Source: a virus
DNA length: 25,757 bases
IMG/VR virus record: IMGVR_UViG_3300027977_000179
Span: 1-25,757 of that record
Reading direction: 5' to 3' (one strand)
A program made the translations under genes and the position numbers. The notes beneath the pieces are model-generated. The model was not told the origin of the DNA. It did not search any database and was given only the letters and a program-made list of their open reading frames with translations. This document shows positions 1 to 19,115 of the stretch, one piece after another (the stretch's first letter is position 1; every line of letters begins with the position of its first letter).

Positions 1-626
1 ATGTTCTTACAGCACTTTCAAATTATAATACAACAACATTACAAAAGTTTGATGGTGTGTTTAGATATTCTAAAGTTACAGGTATTATTGATGATACAGA
101 CACCAGCATTGTTTCAAACATTACTACAATTAAAATAAGAAAGAATTTTACACCTACATTAAATACTTCATCACGATACGACATATATTTTAGAAACTCA
201 TTATATAATCCAGTTTCAGGTTACAATGCTACAAACGGTGGTATTTTAGAATCATCAGGATTTAAAATAAGTGGTGATACAACAAATGTTTTCTTTTTAG
301 ATGACGATGGAGCTGGTAATGTGAGAAGATATAGATTAACAGGTTCAGTAAGAACATATGCTAACAATACACAAGGCACAATTAATTATACAACAGGTCA
401 AATTACTTTAACATCTTTAAATATTACAACAGTTCAAAATATAAGAGGTGTTGCTTCGACTGTTATTGAATTAACAGTTCTACCAAAATCAAATGATATA
501 GTTCCAGTAAGAGATCAAATATTAGAAATTGATACGGCAAACTCAAGCATTACAGTTGAAGCCGATACTTTTGTTGGTGGCTCTGCTGATGCTGGTATAG
601 GATATACAACAGCTTCAAGTAGATAA
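1..626 (+). CDS. gp6: Baseplate wedge subunit gp6, C-terminal part (5' partial)
   Basis: The reading frame (codons from position 3) is open to the left edge, so this is the 3' end of a longer gene; the GTG at 57 is only an internal Val codon. About 208 residues remain. The segment FRYSKVTGIIDDTDTSIVSN followed by TTIKIRKNFTPTLN, and the later NDIVPVRDQILEID, resemble my recollection of the C-terminus of gp6-like baseplate wedge proteins of marine T4-like phages. gp6 forms the ring that holds baseplate wedges together. It sits directly before a gp7-position gene and gp8, the T4 order, and its TAA is two bases from the next ATG, so translation is probably coupled. The family name rests on recalled sequence and synteny, not on a search; the virion-structural nature is much surer than the number. 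Confidence 0.7.
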   Translation, partial: VLTALSNYNTTTLQKFDGVFRYSKVTGIIDDTDTSIVSNITTIKIRKNFTPTLNTSSRYDIYFRNSLYNPVSGYNATNGGILESSGFKISGDTTNVFFLDDDGAGNVRRYRLTGSVRTYANNTQGTINYTTGQITLTSLNITTVQNIRGVASTVIELTVLPKSNDIVPVRDQILEIDTANSSITVEADTFVGGSADAGIGYTTASSR

Positions 627-628
627 CA

Positions 629-3202
629 ATGGCAAAGTTTCACAATAAAATATCAAACCTGATTACTTCTCAGGTTCCTGATTTTGTATTAGACGATCAT
701 CCAAAGTTTGTAGAGTTTCTAAAAACATATTATACATTTATGGAATCTGCCGAATTGGCAGTTACTTCTGTTCAAACAACAGATGGTATCACTTTAGAAA
801 CAGAAACAAATCAGGACAATAAATTAGTTTTAGATGGTTCACGTATTGATTCAGATCGAACACAATTAGATGCTGGCGATAAGTTACTCTTAGAAAGTTC
901 TGCCTTTGGTAAGTTTACAAGAGGTGAAATTATAACAGGCCAAACATCAAAGGCCACTTCAACGATATTAGCAGAAGATTTAGACAATGGCCGACTATTC
1001 ATAGCGGCACAAAACAAGTTTATTCAAGGTGAAATTATATTAGGTGCTAGCTCTAACGCCAGTGCTGTGGTAAATGATTACAGACCAAATCCAGTAAATA
1101 ACATACAAGAGTTATTAGATTTTAGAGATCCAGATAAAGCTGTATCTAACTTTTTAACAAAGTTTAGAAATGAATTTTTAAATACAATACCTGAAGAAAT
1201 AAATGCCAATATTAATAAGAGAAATCTTATAAAGAATATAAAATCATTATATCGTTTAAAAGGTACAAATACAGGCCATCAAATATTCTTTCGATTATTA
1301 TTTGGTTTAGAATCTGAAACAACTTTTCCAAGAGAACAACTTTTAAGAGTATCAGATGGTAAATGGAATACAAGTAAAATATTAAGAGTCATTACAACAA
1401 CAGGTGATACTGTTGATTTAGTAGGAAGAACAATCGAAGGCCAAACTTCAGATGCTACAGCAATTGTAGAAAATGTATTTAAGTTTCAAATTGGTTCAGA
1501 TGAAGTATCAGAATTAATTGTAAACACCGATACAGTTGTAGGCACATTTTCAGTTGGTGAAGAAATACGAGGTACATCTTCTGATGACAGTGATATTTTT
1601 ATAAAAGCAAATATTTCAGGAATACCAAATCAACCTACAATTACAAATGATGGTTCTTTATATACAACAGGCGACACAGTTGCAATTACAGCCGGTGGCG
1701 AAGGATCAATTATACAAGTTGATAGTGTTGGCCGTGGCAGTATAACAGAATTTTTTATTGATGATGTTGGTACAGGTTATGTTATTGGCGACGATTTAGT
1801 TTTCAATAATGCAAACACAGGCGGTGGTGCCGCTGTTGCTAAAGTTTCTGTAGTGAATGGTGGATTTACAGATGAACAAAGCACAAGCACAATTAATGAT
1901 CACATTGTTTTAGAAGATGAAACAGTAAGAGGTGATGCTTACACAGGAAATAAAATTGTTCAAGAATCAGGCACAGGCGTAGGCGACATTACTGATATAA
2001 GAATTATAAATGCCGGTTCAAATTATCTTTCTTTACCCACCGTTACAGTCACAAGTTCAGGTGGTTCAGGTGCTGTTGTAAAAGCTTATGGTTCAGAAAT
2101 TGGCCGTGTTCAATCACTAAAAATTGTAGAACCAGGAAAAGGTTATGAAAATTCACCTACACCTCCTTCATTAAAATTACCGACTTATCTTTTATTGATT
2201 GATCGTATAGGTTCTTTTTCAACAGATGAAACTGTTTCAGCATTAGGTTCAGATGGTTCAACTACGATTACAGCTTCAGTTGTAGGCATAAACACTTCTA
2301 CAAATATTTTAGAAGTATCAAATGCTTCAGGCACTTTTGGTACAGATGTTACAATTACAGGTGGCACATCAGGCGCCACAGCGACAATTAAAAAATTCGA
2401 TCAGGCAACGGCCACTACAACAGTAACAGCTATACTAGATACAGCCGGCACATATATTAGTCAAGACGGCCATCTTTCAGAAAATGTGATGAGAATACAA
2501 GACAGTTTATTATATCAAGACTTTTCATATGTTATTAAAGTAGGCCGTTCAATTAACGACTGGCGAGATAGTTTTAAAAAGACAGTTCACACGGCTGGTT
2601 TTTATTTTGTAGGTCAAGTAAGTATTGCCACACAAGTAAGTGCTGAATTAAGAAGTATTACAGGTATTAACTCTGGCGAAATCAATACACCAATTGATAG
2701 TGTCATCAATACATTATTTACAACAATATTCGGCCGAAGATTAGGTACAGTAGATGATGGTACAACTTTAAGAGCTTCACCACAAATAGGCGAAGGCGCT
2801 GACTTTAATACAAGCACAACATCACCGTTCTCAACAGGAACAAGAGATGTTACATTAAAACGACAATACACAGTATCGTTCCCTGCTATTGCTCGTATTT
2901 CAGTAAGAGGTGATGAATTGAAATTTGGTTACGCTTATTGTGGGCCAAGAATGAGAAGTGTTAATAATTTTGGACTAAGTTTGTTTAGTGGAAGTGGTTT
3001 TGCTCAAACTTCTAATGTAGGAGCAGATAGCACGACAGCTATTTACATATCCCCTATGCAAATGGCCAATTGGGCGAATTTTAGATTAACAGCTTTAAAC
3101 AGTGTGGATTATGATGGAGAGGTTGTTCAATTCCAAGATATTAACAATCCTAATCTAAAAACTAACTTAGCTTTCCCTAGTGAAATTAGGGTAAGTTATT
3201 AA
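629..3202 (+). CDS. Large baseplate structural protein in the gp7 position
   Basis: 857 residues. It starts two bases after the gp6 stop with no good Shine-Dalgarno sequence, which suggests coupling. The N-terminus (residues 4-40: KISNLITSQVPDFVLDDHPK, then FVEFLKTYYTFME) and the region at 224-247 (LFGLESETTFPREQLLRVSD) look like a conserved structural protein of marine T4-like phages. Synteny between gp6 and gp8 makes it the positional counterpart of T4 gp7 (1032 residues), but I see no direct T4 gp7 similarity. A short motif of the form F-x-x-G-E-x-I-x-G-x-T-S recurs near residues 94, 131, 264, 307 and 573. Gly-rich GTGY/GKGY units (about 370-510) resemble an insertion in gp8. It probably acts in wedge assembly. 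The structural role is firm; equating it with gp7 is inference. Confidence 0.7.
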   Translation: MAKFHNKISNLITSQVPDFVLDDHPKFVEFLKTYYTFMESAELAVTSVQTTDGITLETETNQDNKLVLDGSRIDSDRTQLDAGDKLLLESSAFGKFTRGEIITGQTSKATSTILAEDLDNGRLFIAAQNKFIQGEIILGASSNASAVVNDYRPNPVNNIQELLDFRDPDKAVSNFLTKFRNEFLNTIPEEINANINKRNLIKNIKSLYRLKGTNTGHQIFFRLLFGLESETTFPREQLLRVSDGKWNTSKILRVITTTGDTVDLVGRTIEGQTSDATAIVENVFKFQIGSDEVSELIVNTDTVVGTFSVGEEIRGTSSDDSDIFIKANISGIPNQPTITNDGSLYTTGDTVAITAGGEGSIIQVDSVGRGSITEFFIDDVGTGYVIGDDLVFNNANTGGGAAVAKVSVVNGGFTDEQSTSTINDHIVLEDETVRGDAYTGNKIVQESGTGVGDITDIRIINAGSNYLSLPTVTVTSSGGSGAVVKAYGSEIGRVQSLKIVEPGKGYENSPTPPSLKLPTYLLLIDRIGSFSTDETVSALGSDGSTTITASVVGINTSTNILEVSNASGTFGTDVTITGGTSGATATIKKFDQATATTTVTAILDTAGTYISQDGHLSENVMRIQDSLLYQDFSYVIKVGRSINDWRDSFKKTVHTAGFYFVGQVSIATQVSAELRSITGINSGEINTPIDSVINTLFTTIFGRRLGTVDDGTTLRASPQIGEGADFNTSTTSPFSTGTRDVTLKRQYTVSFPAIARISVRGDELKFGYAYCGPRMRSVNNFGLSLFSGSGFAQTSNVGADSTTAIYISPMQMANWANFRLTALNSVDYDGEVVQFQDINNPNLKTNLAFPSEIRVSY

Positions 3203-3209
3203 TATCGTG

Positions 3210-3223
3210 TATAAATATAAATA
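3210..3223 (+). promoter_or_regulatory. Tandem overlapping T4-type late promoters upstream of gp8
   Basis: Two overlapping exact TATAAATA boxes (3210-3217 and 3216-3223) lie in the 39-bp gap after the gp7-position gene. The second ends 18 bases before the gp8 ATG. TATAAATA is the late promoter element used by T4-like phages with the gp55 sigma factor and sliding clamp. The context is intergenic, correctly oriented and before a late structural gene. Confidence 0.8.
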
Positions 3224-3241
3224 GAATTTTAAGGAAAAACT

Positions 3242-4711
3242 ATGCCAGCAATTATAACAAATAAGTTTAGAATACATAATAGTGAACAATTTTCAGAATC
3301 ATTTTCAGAAGCATCACCAAATGTTTACTATTTAGCTATAGGAAGACCACAGGCCTTCGCTACACAAACGAGAGGCGATAGCCGAACAGACAATCAAGGA
3401 ACAGATGCGGCTCCTTTAACACCAGTTGATTCAATACAAGAAGAATTTTATACTTTTGATGATTTATTAGCTGCTAAAAAAATAGCAAGTTCAGACGTTT
3501 CTTTTGTAATACCAAGAAGAAACTGGACAAATGGTACAGTTTACGATTATTACAGACACGATTACGGAAATAGAATTACAGGTTCAACTTCAGTTCAAAC
3601 AGCAAACAGTGGTGCTACAAGTTTATTTGACGCTACTTATTATGTAATGTCATCAACTTATAACGTTTATAAAGTTTTGGATAACAATTCAAATGCTGCT
3701 TCAACAATAGAACCAACAGGCACTTCAACAGCTGTATTAACAACGGCTGATGGTTACAAATGGAAATATATGTATACCTTATCAGCAACACAACAATCAA
3801 ACTTTTTATCAACAGATTTTATGGCCGTTGCAACAAATGGCACAGTATCAGCCGCTGCTGTTGACGGTGCTGTTCGTATCGTAAAAATTAAATCAGCAGG
3901 TACAGGTGGTACAAATGGTACACACACAGGCATAGCGATAAGAGGCGATGGTTCTTCAGGCACAGTTTCAGTTACAGTTGCTGGTGGTGTTATCACTGCT
4001 GTTACAGTTACAAACGTAGGTTCAGGTTATACTTTTGCTTATATACGAAATGCCGATATAGTTACAGCTGGCGCTACAGGTTTAACTGGCTCAGAATTAG
4101 ATGTGATTATTGAACCAAAAGGTGGCCACGGTTTTGATGCTGTAAAAGAATTAGGTGGATTTTATGTAATGTTAAATACAAACTTTGATGGTTCTGAGTC
4201 TGCTAACACAGGCGACTTTACAACAGCAAATGATTTTAGAAGAATTGCTTTAATAAGAGATCCTTTTTCAGGTGGTTCAGCTGCTTCAACTTCAACATTA
4301 AGAGGTACAAAAGCAATACGATTTGCTGCTTCTCCAGCTCCAGGAACATTTACAGTAGATGAAGAAATTAATCAAGCAACAACAGGTGCTGTAGGTAAAG
4401 TTGTTGAATGGGACGCTACAAACAGAATACTACATTACATACAAACAAGATTTAATGATGAAGGCGTTGACAGTAATGGAAATCTAACGGCATTTAGTGG
4501 TGCTAACGTTGTAACTGGCCAAACTTCAAGTGCTACAGGCACACCAAGTTCAGCAGGTAGTGAAAGTGCTGACAATATAACTTTCACAAGTGGTTATGCT
4601 GCTTCTGAAATTGATGCTGACAAAGGCGATGTTATCTATATTGAAAATCGTTCACCAATAACAAGAGCTTCGGATCAAACTGAAAACGTTAAATTAATTA
4701 TTGAGTTTTAG
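3242..4711 (+). CDS. gp8: Baseplate wedge subunit gp8
   Basis: 489 residues against 334 in T4 gp8. Several stretches match T4 gp8 as I recall it: ITNKFR at the N-terminus, YLAIGRPQAF (T4 has ITFGRSEPW), VIPRRNW at 89-95 (T4 VIPRRDW), DGYKWKYMY from 170 (T4 DGYVWEYLF), RRIALIRDP, and the C-terminus IYIENRSPITRASDQTE (T4 IYMENRPPIIMAMDQTE). gp8 is a dimeric wedge protein that binds gp10 and gp7 in the baseplate. The extra length is mostly a Gly/Thr/Val-rich insertion around residues 205-275 with a GSGY unit, and a second one around 355-440 carrying a TGQTSSATG motif. AAGGA precedes the ATG. Its first 11 codons recur out of place at 19532. Confidence 0.93.
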   Translation: MPAIITNKFRIHNSEQFSESFSEASPNVYYLAIGRPQAFATQTRGDSRTDNQGTDAAPLTPVDSIQEEFYTFDDLLAAKKIASSDVSFVIPRRNWTNGTVYDYYRHDYGNRITGSTSVQTANSGATSLFDATYYVMSSTYNVYKVLDNNSNAASTIEPTGTSTAVLTTADGYKWKYMYTLSATQQSNFLSTDFMAVATNGTVSAAAVDGAVRIVKIKSAGTGGTNGTHTGIAIRGDGSSGTVSVTVAGGVITAVTVTNVGSGYTFAYIRNADIVTAGATGLTGSELDVIIEPKGGHGFDAVKELGGFYVMLNTNFDGSESANTGDFTTANDFRRIALIRDPFSGGSAASTSTLRGTKAIRFAASPAPGTFTVDEEINQATTGAVGKVVEWDATNRILHYIQTRFNDEGVDSNGNLTAFSGANVVTGQTSSATGTPSSAGSESADNITFTSGYAASEIDADKGDVIYIENRSPITRASDQTENVKLIIEF

Positions 4712-12277: not shown

Positions 12278-12943
12278 ATGGCATATATTGGACAAAACCC
12301 AATTGACGCATTTAGAGGATTAGCAGCATACGACACCTTTACTGGTGATGGCTCTACTACAACTTTTGATTTAACAAAAGTGGCTCCAGATGGTGGCCAA
12401 AATGATATTCTTGTTGTAGTGAACAATGTCATACAAGAGCCAGGTGTTTCTAAATCTTATACATTAGGTGTAGATGGTAACGGCGATTATAAAAGAGTTA
12501 CTTTCAACGTAGCACCAGACCTTGCTGATGACATTTATGTAATTAATCCAGGCCGTACAACAGCCTTACTTCAAGTTTCAGACAATGCCATTACAGCAGC
12601 AAAATTAAATGTAAGTGCCATAACAGGCCAGACAGAATTAGCAACCGTAGCGGCAGATGATGATGTATTATTAATCGTTGACACATCCGTTGGTACACTT
12701 AAAAAGATTCAAAAATCAAACATAGCAACTACACTTACTTATTCAGTAGGAAGTGAAACAGGAGATGGTTCGACTGTGGCATTTACGATAAATAGTGGCA
12801 GAGCTGTTGCAAATGTTTTAGTGATTGTGAACGGTGTTGTATTAGTTCCAACAACCGACTATACTATAACAGGAACAACACTAACTTTCGTTTTGGCGCC
12901 AGCAGCGTCATCCGAAATACAAATAAGGTATTTACCGATTTAG
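12278..12943 (+). CDS. Modular tail-fibre connector protein (MAYIG type)
   Basis: 221 residues. The N-terminal domain (about 1-95) starts MAYIGQNP and contains FTGDGSTTTFDL, VNNVIQEPG and GDYKRVTFNVAP, typical of phage fibre beta domains that begin tail-fibre proteins. One repeat QTELATVAADDDVLLIVDTS plus LKKIQKS follows (about 115-150). A C-terminal GDGSTVAFTINSGR ... PTTDYTITGTTLTF domain ends in IRYLPI. The same repeat and end domain occur in the larger protein at 14173, so the two are modular paralogues. GAGAGG/GAGGAA lies upstream of the ATG. It is followed nine bases later by a receptor-binding candidate, so it likely anchors a tip protein. The fibre role is inference from domains and context. 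Confidence 0.75.
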   Translation: MAYIGQNPIDAFRGLAAYDTFTGDGSTTTFDLTKVAPDGGQNDILVVVNNVIQEPGVSKSYTLGVDGNGDYKRVTFNVAPDLADDIYVINPGRTTALLQVSDNAITAAKLNVSAITGQTELATVAADDDVLLIVDTSVGTLKKIQKSNIATTLTYSVGSETGDGSTVAFTINSGRAVANVLVIVNGVVLVPTTDYTITGTTLTFVLAPAASSEIQIRYLPI

Positions 12944-12951
12944 GATAAACT

Positions 12952-13545
12952 ATGTCAATTACAAGAAGTTTTGCTAATTTAATTACTGCAAGTGGGCCAA
13001 GTGCTGTGGCAGATGGTTCAATCGTTAATGCAGATATTAATGCTAGTGCTGGAATAGATGCTAGTAAATTAACTGGTGTACAAGGTAAGTTTGAATCTGC
13101 TTTACTTCATGTAAGAGATGAAAAATCTAATGGAACTGATGGTGGTCATGCAACAGCAAACACTTGGGTTAAAAGAGATTTAAATACAATACTTACAAAT
13201 GAAATTTCTGGTGCTTCTATTACATCAAGTGTAATAACTTTGCCTAGTGGAACTTATTTTATTCAAGGATCTGCACCTGCAAGACAGCAACATTATGCAA
13301 AATTAAAATTAAGAAACACAACAGATAGTTCAGATACTTTAATAGGAACAAATGAATATGTAGCGGCAAGTGTTGGTGCCATTACTCATTCTTTTATTGC
13401 AGGAAGATTTACAATAGCATCACAAAAAGATTTTGAATTACAGATGAGAGTAAGCGATACTTCAGTTGGTGGTGGTTTTGGTCTTAGTAACAGTATGTCA
13501 GTAGTTGAAGTATATACTGATATTCAAATATGGAAGACAGCATAA
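12952..13545 (+). CDS. Putative receptor-binding tip protein with C1q-like C-terminal domain
   Basis: 197 residues. The N-terminus MSITRSFANLITASG matches the N-terminal tag of the three tip proteins at 15200-17254, but the rest is unrelated to them. From residue about 50 it reads LLHVRDEKSNGTDGGHA, then LNTILTNEISGAS, LPSGTYFIQGSAPA, LKLRNTTDSSD and finishes EVYTDIQIWKTA. This layout resembles C1q/TNF-like jelly-roll domains used by marine phages at fibre ends. It follows a fibre connector and precedes a small chaperone-like gene, so host recognition is the likely role. AGGA lies before the ATG. It has a single GGCC, a base composition closer to the other tip genes than to the baseplate core. 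Confidence 0.7.
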   Translation: MSITRSFANLITASGPSAVADGSIVNADINASAGIDASKLTGVQGKFESALLHVRDEKSNGTDGGHATANTWVKRDLNTILTNEISGASITSSVITLPSGTYFIQGSAPARQQHYAKLKLRNTTDSSDTLIGTNEYVAASVGAITHSFIAGRFTIASQKDFELQMRVSDTSVGGGFGLSNSMSVVEVYTDIQIWKTA

Positions 13546-13546
13546 T

Positions 13547-13810
13547 ATGAAATACGCATTAATTAAAAATAATAAAGTAGAGTTAATATCATATGAACCA
13601 ACAGAAGGATTTGTTGAAGTAAATGATAATGTATTTGCTGATATGATTAAAAAATCAGATGGTTCATTTAATTACTCAGATGAGTTTTTATTTCAACAAG
13701 AACAATCAAAATTAAAAATGGCACAAGAACTTGCTAACAAACAATCAGCACTAAACAAACTTAAAGCATTAGGTTTAACTGAAGCTGAGATAAAAGCTAT
13801 CATAGGATAA
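13547..13810 (+). CDS. Small tail-fibre-associated (assembly-like) protein
   Basis: 87 residues from the ATG at 13547, one base after the preceding TAA. An earlier in-frame ATG at 13505 lies inside the upstream gene and would add residues out of keeping with the MKYALIKNNKVELISYEP start. The C-terminal half is a predicted helix, and the end NKLKALGLTEAEIKAIIG resembles the LGLTEAEI-type C-terminus of many small proteins encoded next to phage tail fibres, some of which are assembly chaperones. It follows a receptor-binding candidate directly. It probably helps fold or attach the fibre; this is inferred from position and the C-terminal motif only. Confidence 0.7.
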   Translation: MKYALIKNNKVELISYEPTEGFVEVNDNVFADMIKKSDGSFNYSDEFLFQQEQSKLKMAQELANKQSALNKLKALGLTEAEIKAIIG

Positions 13811-13811
13811 T

Positions 13812-13982
13812 ATGGCATACATCGGAGCACAACCAACAGTAGGAAACTTCGTCAAACTAGACGCAATCACTACATCTGCCACAGCTACATACAATTTATT
13901 AAATGGTGGTGTTACAGCAGCTATAAGAGGTGGTGCTGGTGCACATATGACATATTTAAGTGGATACAAAATTATAGAATAA
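13812..13982 (+). CDS. Short truncated MAYIG-type fibre protein (56 residues)
   Basis: ATG at 13812, two bases after the previous stop, TAA at 13980-13982. The first part, MAYIGAQPTVGNFVKLDAIT followed by TSATATYNLLNGG, looks like the start of a phage fibre N-terminal domain that normally continues with a VSLNG-type strand and many more residues. Here it jumps to a short Gly/Ala-rich tail ending HMTYLSGYKIIE. The simplest reading is an internal deletion that joined the start of a fibre connector to the end of another protein. It still has intact start and stop codons and fits the run of closely spaced genes, so it may be expressed. Function unknown. Confidence 0.5.
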   Translation: MAYIGAQPTVGNFVKLDAITTSATATYNLLNGGVTAAIRGGAGAHMTYLSGYKIIE

Positions 13983-13984
13983 TT

Positions 13985-14173
13985 ATGACAAATTTATCAA
14001 CTAAAATAAAACTATACGCAAATAGAGAAGTAAATTTTAGAAATGAAGCTATCTTACAAGATGATGGTAAATGTCGTTTAACTTGCACAGAAGATTATCC
14101 ATCATTTAAAGAATGGCTTGAAGAAGGTAATACACCTTTACCAGCAGATAATCCACCACAGGAGAATAACTAA
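13985..14173 (+). CDS. Small fibre-region protein of unknown function
   Basis: 62 residues, beginning two bases after the preceding stop; its TAA overlaps the next gene's ATG as TAATG, so translation is coupled to the large fibre connector at 14173. Contains LYANREVNFRNEAILQDDGK, then EDYPSFKEWLEEGNTPLPAD and a proline-rich end. It is acidic, lacks membrane segments, and has two cysteines (CRLTC) that could pair or bind metal. I do not recognise the family with certainty. Small acidic proteins next to fibre genes are often assembly factors, but nothing here proves that. Confidence 0.65.
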   Translation: MTNLSTKIKLYANREVNFRNEAILQDDGKCRLTCTEDYPSFKEWLEEGNTPLPADNPPQENN

Positions 14174-15198
14174 TGGCCTACATAGGATTATCCCCAACAT
14201 ACGGAGTATTTGAGAAGCAGGCCTTAACTGCTGATGGCTCTACAACTACATTTACACTCAACTATACTGTAGGCTCATCTTCATCAATACTCGTTTCAGT
14301 GGCCGGTGTTCATCAAGAGCCAGAGGTCGCTTATAATTTAGGCAGTGGTGGCACGCAAATTGTTTTTACAGCGGCGCCAGCTGCCATAGACACCGTATTT
14401 GTAATCTTTCTAGGAGTGGCCTTTGAGTCACAAATATTAGGTACAGGTGCTATAACAGGCCAAACGGCCCTTACAACAGGCGTTCAAGGTGCTGATACAT
14501 TATTAATCTATGATGATTCAGCAGCATCATTAAAGAAAATTAATTTAGATGATCTTATAATCGGTCAAACGGCCCTTACAACAGGTGTTCAAGGTGCTGA
14601 TACATTAATTATCTATGACGACTCAGCAACAGAAATTAAAAAGATTAATTTAGATGACCTTATAATCGGCCAAACAGAATTAGCTGAAACACCAGCAAGT
14701 GATGATGTTCTTTTAGTTTATGATACTTCAGCAAGTGAAATTAAAAAAGTTCAAAAATCTTTTATAACGGCTAATTTAACATATGCCAGTGGTACGGCCA
14801 CAGGCGATGGTTCAACAGTTGCCTTTTCTATTAACTCTGGCCGAACAGTTGAAGATGTTGTAATTACTGTAAACGGATTTCATCTTACACCAACAACAGA
14901 TTATACAATTTCAGGTACAACACTTACATTTACTTTAGCGCCAGCTGCTTCTGCTGAAATATCTATAAGATACTTAGCGGTGCCAGGTACATATTCACAC
15001 GCTGATTACACAGGCGATGGTTCAACAACTGGTATTACAATTAATTCAGGCCGTGCTGTAGATGATGTAATTGTGATAGTAAATGGTTTACAATTAGTAC
15101 CAACAACAGATTACACAATAGCGAGCACAACTTTAACTTTTGTAGCTGCTCCAGCAGCTTCTGCTGAAATAACAGTGAGATACTTGAGGTTAACATAA
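14173..15198 (+). CDS. Modular repeat-containing tail-fibre connector (MAYIG type)
   Basis: 341 residues. N-terminal domain about 1-95 (MAYIGLSPTYGVFEKQ, ADGSTTTFTLNY, AGVHQEPE, VIFLGVAF). Three 35-residue repeats follow (residues about 97-201; pattern QTALTTGVQGADTLLIYDDS, LKKINLDDLIIG); the third is diverged. Two copies of a GDGST ... NSGR ... PTTDYTI ... LAPAASAEI.IRYL domain end the protein. The protein at 12278 has one repeat and one end domain of the same kind, so length seems to change by module gain or loss. An AGGAG ribosome-binding site lies within the upstream gene's end and TAATG couples the two. It precedes three tip genes and probably forms the shaft they attach to. It is rich in GGCC, unlike the tips. 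Confidence 0.75.
   Translation: MAYIGLSPTYGVFEKQALTADGSTTTFTLNYTVGSSSSILVSVAGVHQEPEVAYNLGSGGTQIVFTAAPAAIDTVFVIFLGVAFESQILGTGAITGQTALTTGVQGADTLLIYDDSAASLKKINLDDLIIGQTALTTGVQGADTLIIYDDSATEIKKINLDDLIIGQTELAETPASDDVLLVYDTSASEIKKVQKSFITANLTYASGTATGDGSTVAFSINSGRTVEDVVITVNGFHLTPTTDYTISGTTLTFTLAPAASAEISIRYLAVPGTYSHADYTGDGSTTGITINSGRAVDDVIVIVNGLQLVPTTDYTIASTTLTFVAAPAASAEITVRYLRLT
14461..14775 (+). repeat. Three tandem 105-bp coding repeats
   Basis: Units at 14461-14565, 14566-14670 and 14671-14775 each encode 35 residues within the fibre connector. The first two are nearly identical at DNA level (both begin CAAACGGCCCTTACAACAGG); the third is diverged and resembles the single unit in the gene at 12278. 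Confidence 0.85.
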
Positions 15199-15199
15199 A

Positions 15200-15868
15200 A
15201 TGGGTGCTATTGCTAGAAGTGCCGCAAACAATATAACTACAAGTGGAGTATTTACCTTTAATGCTATTACCAATTCTTCTGTTACAGGAATAACAGTATT
15301 AGCAAATGCTGAAGATGGTATTACACTTATATCTTCTCAAACAGCTTCTAACTCAGCTTCAATTAGTTTTACAACAGGCATAACTTCAACTTACAAAGCA
15401 TATAAATTTGTGTTTAGCGATATTCACCCAAGAACTGATACTGTTGGTTTCCAATTTAACATGAGTACAGATAGTGGTTCTAATTACAACGTTACCAAGA
15501 CTACTACAAATTTTGTTGCTACACATAAAGCAGATGATGCTGATGCTGGTTTAATTTATCAAAGTGGTAGGGATTTAGCACAATCAACAGGATTTCAAGA
15601 AATTATGGGAGATTGTGGAAATGGTGCAAAAAAAAATAGTGGTGGTTCTTTATTATTATTTAATCCTTCTTCTACAACCTATGTAAAGCACTTTATATCA
15701 AATGGAAGCACAATGACATATCACACTGGAGATACTGATACTGGTAATTATAATTATGCTATGTTTGTTGGTGGTTATGGAAATACAACATCAGCAGTTA
15801 ATGCAATTAGATTTCAAATGTCATCAGGGAACTTTGATGGTAAAATTTACTTATATGGAATTAAATAA
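15200..15868 (+). CDS. Putative receptor-binding tip protein, paralogue 1
   Basis: 222 residues. Starts with a variant of the shared tag, MGAIARSAANNITTSG. The body contains LISSQTASNSASISFTTGI, STYKAYKFVFSDIHPRTD, a variable middle (about 105-160), then LLLFNPSSTTYVKHFI and a C-terminus NAIRFQMSSGNFDGKIYLYG. The genes at 15920 and 16595 share this plan throughout, with the middle part most different. Proteins ending in a SGN-x-x-G-x-x-x-LYGI pattern are common at the end of marine phage fibre clusters. The TAA overlaps a downstream ATG (TAATG). No GGCC occurs in this gene or the next two. Host-surface binding is inferred from arrangement and variation. Confidence 0.7.
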   Translation: MGAIARSAANNITTSGVFTFNAITNSSVTGITVLANAEDGITLISSQTASNSASISFTTGITSTYKAYKFVFSDIHPRTDTVGFQFNMSTDSGSNYNVTKTTTNFVATHKADDADAGLIYQSGRDLAQSTGFQEIMGDCGNGAKKNSGGSLLLFNPSSTTYVKHFISNGSTMTYHTGDTDTGNYNYAMFVGGYGNTTSAVNAIRFQMSSGNFDGKIYLYGIK

Positions 15869-15927
15869 TGGCTACACTTTCACTACGTTCAAGTATAGAA
15901 ATTCGCAAGGAGATTGCTCATGGGTAG
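15868..15927 (+). CDS. Possible 19-residue micro-gene coupling two tip genes
   Basis: ATG at 15868 overlaps the stop of the preceding tip gene as TAATG; the frame reads MATLSLRSSIEIRKEIAHG then TAG at 15925-15927, which overlaps the start of the next tip gene by eight bases. It contains that gene's AAGGAG ribosome-binding site (15907-15912). It could be a coupling leader, or the leftover start of a gene removed when the tip genes were duplicated. No family is recognisable. Confidence 0.3.
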   Translation: MATLSLRSSIEIRKEIAHG

Positions 15928-16579
15928 CATAACAAGAAGTTTATCAAACAACATTACAACTGGTGGAGTTATACTTCCTGCTGGAATTACAAATTCTTCA
16001 GTAAGTGCTGTAACTTCCTTTGCTAATGCTAGTGGTGGAACATTAATATTATTATCAACACAGACTGCTAGTGCATCAGCTAACATCTCCTTTACCACAG
16101 GATTGGATTCTACTTATGATGAATATATATTTAAGTTTATTAATATTCACCCTGCTGTTGATGATAATGAATTTCATTTTAATATGAGTACAGATGGTGG
16201 TTCAAATTATAACGTAACAAAAACCACTACATCATTTTATTCTTTTCATAATGAAGCTGATACAGTAACAGCATTAACATATAATACTGAAGCTGACTTA
16301 GCACAAAGCACAGCATTTCAACCATTAATGAATGGTTTGGGTTCAGATGCAGACCAACAAGGTTCAGGAACATTAACATTATTTAATCCATCTAGCACAA
16401 CTTATGTTAAGCATTTTATTACTCAGATACCTACAACATTTAGAGATGACGCTTCTTATACAGATTTTGTAGCTGGATATGGAAACACAACAAGTGCTGT
16501 TAATGCAATCCAATTTAAGATGTCATCTGGTAACATAGACGATGGTATTATTAAGCTGTATGGGGTAAAGAAATCATAA
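15920..16579 (+). CDS. Putative receptor-binding tip protein, paralogue 2
   Basis: 219 residues from the ATG at 15920, chosen because it gives the conserved start MGSITRSLSNNITTGG and has AAGGAG seven bases upstream; a TTG two codons earlier (15914) is less likely. The plan matches paralogue 1: STQTASASANISFTTGL, DEYIFKFINIHPAVDD, a variable middle, LTLFNPSSTTYVKHFI, GYGNTTSAVNAIQFKMSSGN and a LYGVKKS end. It differs from paralogues 1 and 3 mainly in the middle and just before the C-terminal block. Likely an alternative or additional host-binding tip. Whether all three are assembled on one virion cannot be told from sequence. Confidence 0.7.
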   Translation: MGSITRSLSNNITTGGVILPAGITNSSVSAVTSFANASGGTLILLSTQTASASANISFTTGLDSTYDEYIFKFINIHPAVDDNEFHFNMSTDGGSNYNVTKTTTSFYSFHNEADTVTALTYNTEADLAQSTAFQPLMNGLGSDADQQGSGTLTLFNPSSTTYVKHFITQIPTTFRDDASYTDFVAGYGNTTSAVNAIQFKMSSGNIDDGIIKLYGVKKS

Positions 16580-16594
16580 TGGAGAATAAATAAT

Positions 16595-17254
16595 ATGGGG
16601 AGTATCACTAGAAGTTTTGCAAATAACATAACAACATCAGGTGTGCTATTACCAGCATCATTGAATAACAATTCTATTGCCAATGTAACTGAATACAATG
16701 CCGCAATAGCTACTGGTAATATGGTTCTATTAAGCAGTCAGACAGCAAGTAACTCAGCTTCTATTTCTTTTACTACTGGTATTGATTCTACTTATAAAGA
16801 GTACCAGTTTTATTTTATAGATGTTCACCCAAGAACTGATAGTGCTAATTTTGCATTTCAAGTAAGCACAAATGGTGGAAGTAGTTATGGAGTGATACAA
16901 ACAAATACACAATTTAGAGCATACCATTTTGAAAATGACAGTGCCACACAACTTGCTTACAATGGTTCAGGAGATGTAGCACAAACAACAGATCTTGCTT
17001 TGATAACAGCAGAAATAAGTGTTGGTAATGGTGCAGACGAATGTTGTGTTGGTTACTTACAATTATTCAATCCTTCTTCAACTACATACGTTAAACATTA
17101 TATAGTTAATAATCAGACATATAACGCAAGTGATATTAGTGCTAACAATTTTGTTGCAGGATATTTTAATACTACGACTGCTTTAAACGCAATTCAATTT
17201 AAAATGGATAGTGGAAACTTTGATGGAACAATACTTATGTATGGTATCGTATAA
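16595..17254 (+). CDS. Putative receptor-binding tip protein, paralogue 3
   Basis: 219 residues. Starts MGSITRSFANNITTSG, the most typical copy of the shared tag, followed by LLSSQTASNSASISFTTGID, KEYQFYFIDVHPRTD, a middle that is unlike the other two and contains a vicinal Cys pair (ADECCVGY), then LQLFNPSSTTYVKHYI and NAIQFKMDSGNFDGTILMYG. GGAG lies about 10 bases before the ATG. The near-consensus box AATAAATA at 16585 is too close to the start to be a convincing promoter, so it is probably read from further upstream together with paralogues 1 and 2. Function inferred as host recognition. Confidence 0.7.
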   Translation: MGSITRSFANNITTSGVLLPASLNNNSIANVTEYNAAIATGNMVLLSSQTASNSASISFTTGIDSTYKEYQFYFIDVHPRTDSANFAFQVSTNGGSSYGVIQTNTQFRAYHFENDSATQLAYNGSGDVAQTTDLALITAEISVGNGADECCVGYLQLFNPSSTTYVKHYIVNNQTYNASDISANNFVAGYFNTTTALNAIQFKMDSGNFDGTILMYGIV

Positions 17255-17293: not shown

Positions 17294-17383
17294 ATGGCAG
17301 AACATAACCAAATTAAGACCTCCTTTAGTAAAAGAATTATAAATAGTAATAAATTAACAGGAGAAACCAATGCCAAGATATAA
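17294..17383 (+). CDS. Possible 29-residue micro-gene or gene-start remnant
   Basis: ATG at 17294 with an excellent AGGAG six bases upstream; the frame reads MAEHNQIKTSFSKRIINSNK then LTGETNAKI and stops at 17381-17383, overlapping the start of the gene at 17370. A late promoter (17338) lies inside it. The good ribosome-binding site with such a short product suggests either a genuine small peptide or the stranded start of a gene lost at a module junction. Confidence 0.35.
   Translation: MAEHNQIKTSFSKRIINSNKLTGETNAKI
17338..17345 (+). promoter_or_regulatory. T4-type late promoter
   Basis: Exact TATAAATA followed by GTAA, 24 bases before the ATG at 17370, with an AGGAG ribosome-binding site in between. 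Identical 12-base core to those at 11859 and 19504. Confidence 0.78.
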
Positions 17384-17660
17384 ACTCGTAGATGGTGTAT
17401 CTGTACAATTCACTGCTGCTGAAGAAACAGCAAGAGATGCTGAAGAAGCGGCCTATGCTGCTGGCGCTTTTGATAGAGCACTTGCTTCTCTTAGGGCTAG
17501 AAGAAACGCTTTATTAGCGGCTACAGATTACCTTGCTTTGTCTGATAATACTTTGTCTGCTAATATGACAACGTATAGACAAGCATTAAGAGATTTAACA
17601 GAAGGCCTGACTACAGTAGCACAGATAAATGCTGTTGTATGGCCAACTAAACCAGTATAA
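17370..17660 (+). CDS. Tail-fibre assembly chaperone-like protein
   Basis: 96 residues. The N-terminus MPRYKLVDGVSVQFTAAEET is followed by an Ala-rich helix and then RARRNALLAATDYLALSDNT, MTTYRQALRDLTEG and a VVWPTKP end. The pattern R-R-N-x-L-L-x-x-T-D-[WY] ... Y-R-Q-A-L-R-D ... W-P is typical of phage tail assembly chaperone-like proteins encoded beside tail fibres (the Phage_tail_APC-like group). AGGAG lies about eight bases before the ATG, and its own late promoter lies upstream. Given the position between three tip genes and the glycine-rich adhesin, it most likely assists fibre folding or attachment. Confidence 0.75.
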   Translation: MPRYKLVDGVSVQFTAAEETARDAEEAAYAAGAFDRALASLRARRNALLAATDYLALSDNTLSANMTTYRQALRDLTEGLTTVAQINAVVWPTKPV

Positions 17661-17681: not shown

Positions 17682-19115
17682 ATGCCATTAACAAAGATCA
17701 CAACAAGCGGTATAGATAATGACGCTATCACGTCAGATAAGATAGCAGCTGGCGTTGTCAGTGCTTCAGATGTGGCCGATGGCACATTAACAAATAATAA
17801 ACTTGTTAATTCTCTTTTAAAGTTTGCTGACGAATCTTCAACAGTTACTTCCATACCTCTTGGCGGCACATTAAAATTTAATGGTGCCACACTCTCAGGA
17901 GATACATTAGAAATTACAGGTGGTACTTCATGGCAATCAGTTCAAACAACAGGATTTACTGCTGTGGCCGGCCGTGCTTATCCTTGTAACACAACTTCTG
18001 CAGCATTTACAGTAACATTACCTGCAACTCCAAGTGCTGGAGATGAGATTATACTTTTAGATTATGCAGGAACTTTTGCTACTAATAATCTTAATATTAC
18101 TTCAACACCAAAAATAAATGGTTCAACAAATGATGTTTTATTAACAACAAATAGAGAAGCAACAAGATTAGTTTATATAGATTCAACACAAGGTTGGTTA
18201 GCTTATTCAGGTGTTAATGAAGGTACAGCACCTTCTTTAACTGATAACCCACCACCTTATTCAGTAGATTTTTTAGTAGTGGCAGGTGGTGGAGGTAGTG
18301 GTGGTAGAGCAAATGGTGCTGGTGGTAGTGCAGGAGGTGGTGCAGGAGGATATAGAAATTCATTTAGTACAGAAACTTCAGGTGGTGGTGGAAGTTCAGA
18401 ATCAAGTTTAACATTTTCAGTTGGAACAGTTTATACAATTACAGTTGGTGCTGGAGGAGCAGCAGGTGCAAGTGGTGCTACTAATGGATTTGGAGGCAGT
18501 GGTGGAAATTCATCAATTTCAGGAACAGGAATTACAACAATAACTTCTAGTGGTGGAGGAGGTGGTGGACATGGAACTGCTCCAAATAGTGCTGGTAATT
18601 CAGGTGGTTCTGGGGGTGGTGGAACAGCAACATCAACAACAGCAAATGGAGGTTCAGGAACAGCAAATCAAGGTTATGCAGGAAAAGGTGGAGATGGTGA
18701 TGCTGGTGGAGGTGGTGGTGGTGCTAGTGCAGTTGGTACTGATGCAGTTAGTGGTAGTGGTGGTAATGGTGGTGCTGGTTTAGCTTCTTCAATAACAGGT
18801 TCTTCTCTTAGTAGAGGTGGAGGAGGAGGTGTAGCAAGATATTTAACTGGTTCTAATGGAACTGGCGGAACTGGTGGTGGTGGAAATGCAGGAAATCCTG
18901 GTACTGCTGGAACAGTAAATACTGGAGGTGGAGGCGGAGGTAGTGAAGGTGTTGGTATTTCACCTACTGCTGGAGCAGCAGGTGGTAAAGGAGTTGTTAT
19001 ATTAAGTATGCCTCTTGCCAATTTTTCTGGTACAGTAACAGGTTCACCAACAGAATCAGATGATGGAACAACTAAACGATTAATATTTAACGATTCAGGA
19101 AGTTACACAGGATAA
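17682..19115 (+). CDS. Tail-fibre adhesin with large glycine-rich domain
   Basis: 477 residues. The N-terminal part (1-45, ITTSGIDNDAITSDKIAAGV) resembles phage fibre attachment sequences. Residues about 45-80 hold the DESST/LGGTLKF module shared with 11037, 20895 and 24189. Residues about 85-195 form a beta domain (VTLPATPSAGDEIILLDYAG). From 199 to about 440 the protein is glycine-rich, bounded by DFLVVAGGGG and GGKGVVILSMP, the usual borders of Gly-rich domains in marine phage fibres. Runs of four to six Gly are separated by Ser/Thr/Ala-rich loops. This recalls the polyglycine helices of the gp38-type adhesins of some T-even-like phages. The first 300 bases contain GGCC; the Gly-rich part has none. 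Confidence 0.8.
   Translation: MPLTKITTSGIDNDAITSDKIAAGVVSASDVADGTLTNNKLVNSLLKFADESSTVTSIPLGGTLKFNGATLSGDTLEITGGTSWQSVQTTGFTAVAGRAYPCNTTSAAFTVTLPATPSAGDEIILLDYAGTFATNNLNITSTPKINGSTNDVLLTTNREATRLVYIDSTQGWLAYSGVNEGTAPSLTDNPPPYSVDFLVVAGGGGSGGRANGAGGSAGGGAGGYRNSFSTETSGGGGSSESSLTFSVGTVYTITVGAGGAAGASGATNGFGGSGGNSSISGTGITTITSSGGGGGGHGTAPNSAGNSGGSGGGGTATSTTANGGSGTANQGYAGKGGDGDAGGGGGGASAVGTDAVSGSGGNGGAGLASSITGSSLSRGGGGGVARYLTGSNGTGGTGGGGNAGNPGTAGTVNTGGGGGGSEGVGISPTAGAAGGKGVVILSMPLANFSGTVTGSPTESDDGTTKRLIFNDSGSYTG

Follow-up and report, generated by a model that had tools for sequence, protein, structure and literature searches.

A conserved N-terminal peptide on unrelated tail-fibre tips of marine phages and its pairing with an upstream C-terminal domain, a probable docking plug and socket

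The virus record IMGVR_UViG_3300027977_000179 of IMG/VR, analysed here over its whole length of 25,757 nucleotides (25.8 kb, hereafter "the window"), carries a run of tail-fibre-type genes, including four, named by their start positions 12952, 15200, 15920 and 16595, that encode small tip proteins sharing a short N-terminal tag. Across related viral contigs, this tag stands on many different bodies, is paired almost perfectly with a constant domain at the C-terminal end of the gene upstream of the tips, and is conserved at the protein level. With a probability of about three in four (0.76), we regard the tag as a docking plug that seats the tips on this C-terminal socket of an adaptor protein, based on the genomic association and on the predicted fold of the socket. 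According to this scheme, the adaptor (12278 or 14173 in the window) would attach to the virion by its N-terminus and would end in one or more XD-type beta-sandwich sockets, and the plug, i.e., the first ~16 residues of each tip, would bind the terminal socket, keeping the tip on the fibre end. With a constant plug and socket and variable anchors and tip bodies, either half would be exchangeable. We infer that plug and socket bind physically, that a threefold socket may take three plugs, and that the tips serve in host recognition.

The tag reads M-G-x-I-[TA]-R-[SGN]-x-x-N-x-I-T-x-[SG]-G, and the translated N-termini are MSITRSFANLITASGP (12952), MGAIARSAANNITTSG (15200), MGSITRSLSNNITTGG (15920, whose open reading frame (ORF) is listed from a TTG at 15914 and whose tag is read from the ATG at 15920) and MGSITRSFANNITTSG (16595). 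The motif that the preliminary description of this stretch had assigned to all four proteins is exact in the last three, while 12952 is one residue shorter, the third being absent (M-S-I-T vs. M-S-x-I-T). This likeness between the four proteins is not due to chance. Searched as a degenerate codon pattern, the tag was recovered from 70 stretches of IMG/VR. Genuine N-termini of tail-tip-like genes account for nearly all of these and short spurious ORFs for a few, and the tag was never found inside a longer protein. In all, three tag codon patterns and two socket patterns yielded 245 tagged ORFs in a sample of 244 sequences (mostly contigs of IMG/VR, together with the window and a small number of phage records). 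An extra tag pattern ('ANLIT') gave no further locus, and a tblastn search with tag and linker gave no match in cultured phage genomes; the phage collection searched contained no phage with this cassette. When one genome per bacterial or archaeal species was searched, the tag pattern had three matches, in Methylobacteriaceae, Ureibacillus and Helicobacter (L245, L246, L247), possibly by chance. Divergent tags were observed within some arrays, namely MSIALSLGNNLTTGG and MGANTRGFANLLNTDGT (L010, L024, L049; L121, L211, L243).

Two outcomes had been named beforehand as telling against a docking role, a tag confined to one full-length family and a tag buried inside each protein, and neither was observed. 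The bodies of the 245 tagged ORFs fall into 11 BLAST clusters, some of which may be remote relatives of each other, and five of them match different PHROG families, which rules out that the tag is part of one family. Moreover, in the AlphaFold2 (AF2) models of 12952 and of the tip at locus L028, the tag is not folded into the tip body; in 12952, it is unstructured (predicted local distance difference test, pLDDT, ~47). As for the window itself, residues 47–196 of 12952 correspond to the C-terminal half of phrog_24210 (E 1e-37), and the match of 15200, 15920 and 16595 to phrog_14820 runs from residue ~21, directly after the tag, through to the C-terminus (E 2e-63 to 6e-81), in agreement with the two kinds of body noticed earlier. 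Four of the five PHROG-distinct bodies correspond to the C-terminal ends of long tail-fibre-type proteins, the match beginning directly after the tag or linker (phrog_24210, 152–302/303; phrog_4492, 779–1042/1096; phrog_27227, 283–613/617; phrog_6942, 527–674/708). Tagged bodies include predicted C1q/TNF-like and galectin-like jelly rolls. The body of 12952 is predicted to have a TNF/C1q jelly-roll topology, as its model (pLDDT 69, i.e., moderate) matches TNF/C1q chains in Foldseek (E 2e-6 and below 1e-4, probability 1.00), the short tail fibre of cyanophage A-1(L) (8ke9) being among the matches; a search of IMG/VR for close relatives of this body found none. The phrog_14820 body is tentatively predicted, at moderate Z, to be a ConA/galectin-like sandwich (Z 7–8.5 to galectin-8 and GH32 beta-sandwich domains, near the background range of the tool).

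The gene upstream of the first tip has a varying N-terminus and a constant C-terminal region of ~65 residues, the socket, with the consensus ..TGDGSTTAFTINSGRxVxDVLVxVNGxxLVPTxDYTISGTTLTFxTAPxxxAEIxVRYL... A gene ending in this socket lies directly upstream in 102/102 resolvable tip arrays, which provide 86 non-redundant socket-tip pairs. Among the 245 tagged ORFs, 102 come first in their array behind a socket gene, 109 stand after another tagged tip, nine are at contig edges, and the remaining 25 lie inside arrays behind a sibling that is truncated or carries a divergent tag (such as MSIALSLGNNLTTGG or MGANTRGFANLL), so that the pairing has no true exception. The Hidden Markov Model (HMM) of the socket was built from genes upstream of tags, and two sets of loci are free of the resulting circularity. 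In loci found through the last codons of socket genes alone, the downstream gene is tagged in 29/34 cases; in loci found through the tip body alone, a socket lies upstream of 2/2 tagged first copies and of 0/63 untagged ones for which the upstream gene could be identified. At least six types of adaptor N-terminus carry the socket: MA/PYIG, MAQHDYNIANQGFPAFR, MAKQxINRGTxANDGTG, MAGxxxYS, MTISxTxVKNSYxG and MPSSFSTDLK. The socket forms the C-terminal end of both 12278 (RYLPI) and 14173 (RYLRLT), as it does in the other adaptors, and the two proteins have no receptor-binding domain beyond the docking domains.

These results amend the idea, put forward in the preliminary description, of a common docking peptide on interchangeable bodies that possibly sits on connectors with a MAYIG N-terminus. 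Its first part is well supported by the genomic association (five PHROG families, one constant socket), the contact between tag and socket being putative. As to the second, the connectors 12278 and 14173 do lie upstream of the tips, and the tag patterns do find unrelated bodies in related contigs, but the constant neighbour, and hence the putative partner, is the C-terminal XD-type domain and not MAYIG. The latter was rejected as the partner of the tag since this socket also stands behind other N-termini and is absent from MAYIG proteins of tagless phages; for example, HTVC010P and HTVC019P have MAYIG fused to C1q-like or other bodies.

Between the three classes of galectin-like tips (A, B and C, represented by 15200, 15920 and 16595), amino-acid identity is 66–74% in the tag, 32–38% in the linker and 58–59% in the body, while identity at fourfold sites is 0.40–0.45 in the tag vs. 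0.48–0.49 in the body. As protein, the tag is thus more alike than the body, and its fourfold sites are no more alike than those of the body, which indicates that selection acts on the protein; a DNA-level element is unsupported between classes. Distances between sockets also correlate with distances between tags when body distance is controlled for (partial r 0.41, permutation p 0.0005), which is only suggestive of pairing because relatedness is shared.

To model the socket, a socket gene and the tip naturally adjacent to it (L028) were read through their stops as a single chain, and AF2 modelled the socket and tip domains with confidence. The terminal socket (model residues 83–149) superimposes on the XD2 domain of tailspike TSP4 of phage CBA120 (VIA-align, Z 10.1, 1.4 A, 64 residues) and also aligns with N-terminal domains of T7-type fibres, the best structural match being the XD2/XD3 docking domain of TSP4. 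The socket is therefore predicted to be an XD-type beta-sandwich, and in CBA120 it is through XD2 and XD3 that TSP4 binds its partner tailspikes (PMC8825819). A sequence search of the PDB with the socket profile was uninformative (mostly antibody chains at E 0.03–1, and one capsule depolymerase at 0.01).

In the window, the genes form two cassettes, adaptor 12278 with tip 12952, and adaptor 14173 with tips 15200, 15920 and 16595 and chaperone 17370. All features are on the + strand:

12278..12943, +, adaptor 1, MAYIG N-terminus, 221 residues, one terminal socket domain (phrog_18673 tail fibre N-terminus, E 3e-15; C-terminal socket HMM score 112; followed by a tagged gene)
12737..12940, +, socket domain of adaptor 1, last ~68 residues, ..EIQIRYLPI (alignment; direct repeat D2)
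12952..12999, +, tag or putative plug of tip 1, MSITRSFANLITASGP (AF2 pLDDT ~47, without secondary structure)
12952..13545, +, tip 1, predicted C1q/TNF-like body, 197 residues (C-terminal half of phrog_24210; Foldseek TNF/C1q)
14173..15198, +, adaptor 2, MAYIG N-terminus, 341 residues (phrog_18673, E 4e-24; repeats D2, D8, D16)
14779..14973, +, first socket repeat of adaptor 2, residues 203–267 (PF03906 Phage_T7_tail, E 5e-8; PF03442; repeat D2)
14992..15195, +, terminal socket of adaptor 2, ..EITVRYLRLT (socket HMM score 123; alignment)
15200..15868, +, tip A, tag MGAIARSAANNITTSG and phrog_14820 body
15920..16579, +, tip B, tag MGSITRSLSNNITTGG and phrog_14820 body
16595..17254, +, tip C, tag MGSITRSFANNITTSG and phrog_14820 body
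17370..17660, +, tail assembly chaperone, 96 residues, end of the cassette (PF16778 Phage_tail_APC, E 1.6e-12; phrog_4912 tail fibre assembly)

Adaptor 14173 consists of an N-terminal module, ITGQT..LLIYD spacer repeats and two C-terminal socket domains. Its three spacer repeats of ~35 residues (ITGQTALTTGVQGADTLLIYDDSAASLKKINLDDLI, 14451–14790), the first two of which are 85% identical in DNA, possibly reflect a recent change in shaft length. A chaperone like 17370 is present in most related loci too. Elsewhere in the window, positions 57–4708 hold myovirus-like baseplate genes (PHROG baseplate wedge families). An 87-residue gene at 13547–13810, with no match in PHROG and Pfam searches, ends in LKALGLTEAEIKAIIG, an ending that is common, on other contigs, in genes directly upstream of untagged tip triplets. 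Finally, the next member of the tail-fibre run (17682–19115) encodes a 477-residue protein with a glycine-rich C-terminal domain (PF21722, E 1e-8).

Several points weigh against docking. The way in which the socket HMM was built makes the set found through the tag partly circular, and the contigs are related, so that the counts are not independent events. Five of the 34 socket genes found through their own codons are followed by a gene without a clear tag (L079, L083, L088 twice, L092). In the L028 model, the tag is not confidently placed (block pLDDT 56–76) and forms no strand on the socket, this being a monomer model of an expected trimer. Lastly, tagless relatives of the same tips manage without plug and socket. 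Direct fusion of anchor and tip body occurs in some untagged phages (e.g., fusions of 317–362 residues), which makes the two-piece plug-and-socket form look like an alternative to one-piece fibres. The genes without a clear tag that follow sockets at L079, L083, L088 and L092 (MGLKTRLLASGK, MSKAFDFAKSIEG, MGIIKRNRGNSKG) may represent other plug types.

Three other explanations can be set against these data. The tag might be a trimerisation or folding-nucleation motif of the small tips that makes no contact with the adaptor: tips with a C1q/TNF-like fold would be trimeric, monomer models show no structure in the tag, and many fibrous proteins have N-terminal registration motifs. Such a motif would need no particular neighbour domain, yet a socket lies upstream in all 102 resolvable arrays, and the tagless versions of the same tips lack this neighbour (0/63), so that we consider this explanation improbable. 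Tag and socket might also be linked by ancestry alone, the conserved 5' block being a recombination junction for tip swapping without any docking. Within one tip class, identity at fourfold sites is indeed 0.58–0.83 in tag and linker vs. 0.50–0.54 in the body, as expected if bodies are exchanged downstream; however, between classes and bodies the tag is kept as protein and not as DNA (0.40–0.45), and the association covers at least six anchor types and five body families, which makes a mere junction quite improbable, a little more so than a trimerisation motif. The least probable of the three is that the tag docks on another part of the virion (baseplate or tail hub), the socket having another purpose or partner. 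The putative status of the tag-socket contact and the spare domains left by adaptors with two or three sockets would fit this explanation, but it is the adaptor genes that constantly adjoin the tips, in phages that otherwise differ (at least six N-terminal types), and the fold of the socket matches domains whose known job is to hold partner tail proteins. Docking of the plug on the C-terminal socket therefore remains our preferred reading.

The number of tips follows a rule of its own. Complete tagged phrog_14820 arrays have exactly three tips in 45 of 48 cases, the other three having six tips, three tips with a split gene, and a single tip; the array of six galectin-like tips is at L243. Of the untagged arrays, 34 have three tips and 5 have an anchor-tip fusion in addition to three; a fusion of anchor and galectin-like tip followed by three more tips was observed at L138, L141, L170, L175 and L177. 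Arrays of other bodies have one tip gene in 18/18 cases. The three tip positions are separate lineages that keep their order; a tree backbone gave no resolution on their orthology between tagged and untagged triplets. One socket per tip is not supported by these counts, since the number of tips does not follow the number of sockets per adaptor, triplets occurring with one (10), two (33) or three sockets (2). Tail-fibre tips are normally homotrimers. The triplet pattern fits one threefold socket that would take either a homotrimer from one gene or a heterotrimer from three, among other readings. That the galectin-like tips are heterotrimers of one A, one B and one C, each with an identical plug inserted into a threefold socket, is a tentative proposal that we hold to be somewhat less probable than its negation.

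The preliminary description knew of no named docking element of this kind, which has to be corrected: docking peptides are already named in K1-5 and Klebsiella phages, and the docking scheme is known from a few phages of gut bacteria. Briefly, the middle and C-terminal parts of the K1-5 adaptor dock two tailspikes through short peptides, the heptapeptide MAKLTKP and the undecapeptide MIQRLGSSLVK, and in KP32-type phages 'conserved peptides' are thought to seat on T4gp10-like domains (PMC6872550). The K1-5/SP6 system (K1-5 gp46, gp47) resembles the marine one in its dedicated adaptor with T4gp10-like (XD2/XD3) domains and no receptor-binding domain of its own, in tips with a short conserved N-terminal peptide common to phages with different bodies, and in socket-like sequence at the docking regions of the K1-5 adaptor (HMM match at 204–242, weak match at 275–305). 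It differs in having two other peptides for two sites, whereas here one plug serves single tips or triplets and many anchor types, in marine phages; the tags are not the same sequence as MAKLTKP or MIQRLGSSLVK, with a loose I-x-R likeness at most. By analogy, the marine system would work like the K1-5/SP6 kind, to which we do not assign it as a member, the attachment of tip to adaptor being putative. CBA120 TSP4 shares the XD2/XD3 fold of the socket and the binding of partner tailspikes by XD domains, but these are at the N-terminus of a full tailspike and not at the end of the protein, and its partners dock by a whole head or XD domains instead of a ~16-residue plug. In KP32 and G7C, a second receptor-binding protein is likewise thought to be attached by an N-terminal conserved region to the T4gp10-like domain of the first, but the first protein retains its own receptor-binding domain, and each phage group has a different peptide, which serves a single body at a time. 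Finally, pelagiphages HTVC010P and HTVC019P also have tandem triplets of this tip family, with a chaperone-like gene behind them, but no tag and no socket upstream, their tips starting with MALNFANNNSLSAIT-like sequences.

New here are the marine version, the unusual breadth of its anchors and bodies, and the unexplained rule of three. Fast-varying metaviromic islands in phages of abundant ocean bacteria hold C1q, lectin and tail-fibre genes (PMC3909814). If the proposed scheme is true, a constant plug and socket, with free exchange on either side, would account for the swapping of host-recognition tips in marine phages whose fibre otherwise stays as it is. The plug-socket pair provides a simple criterion by which receptor-binding tips can be recognised from sequence among unannotated marine genes, and the rule of three makes heterotrimeric galectin-like tips a directly testable claim.

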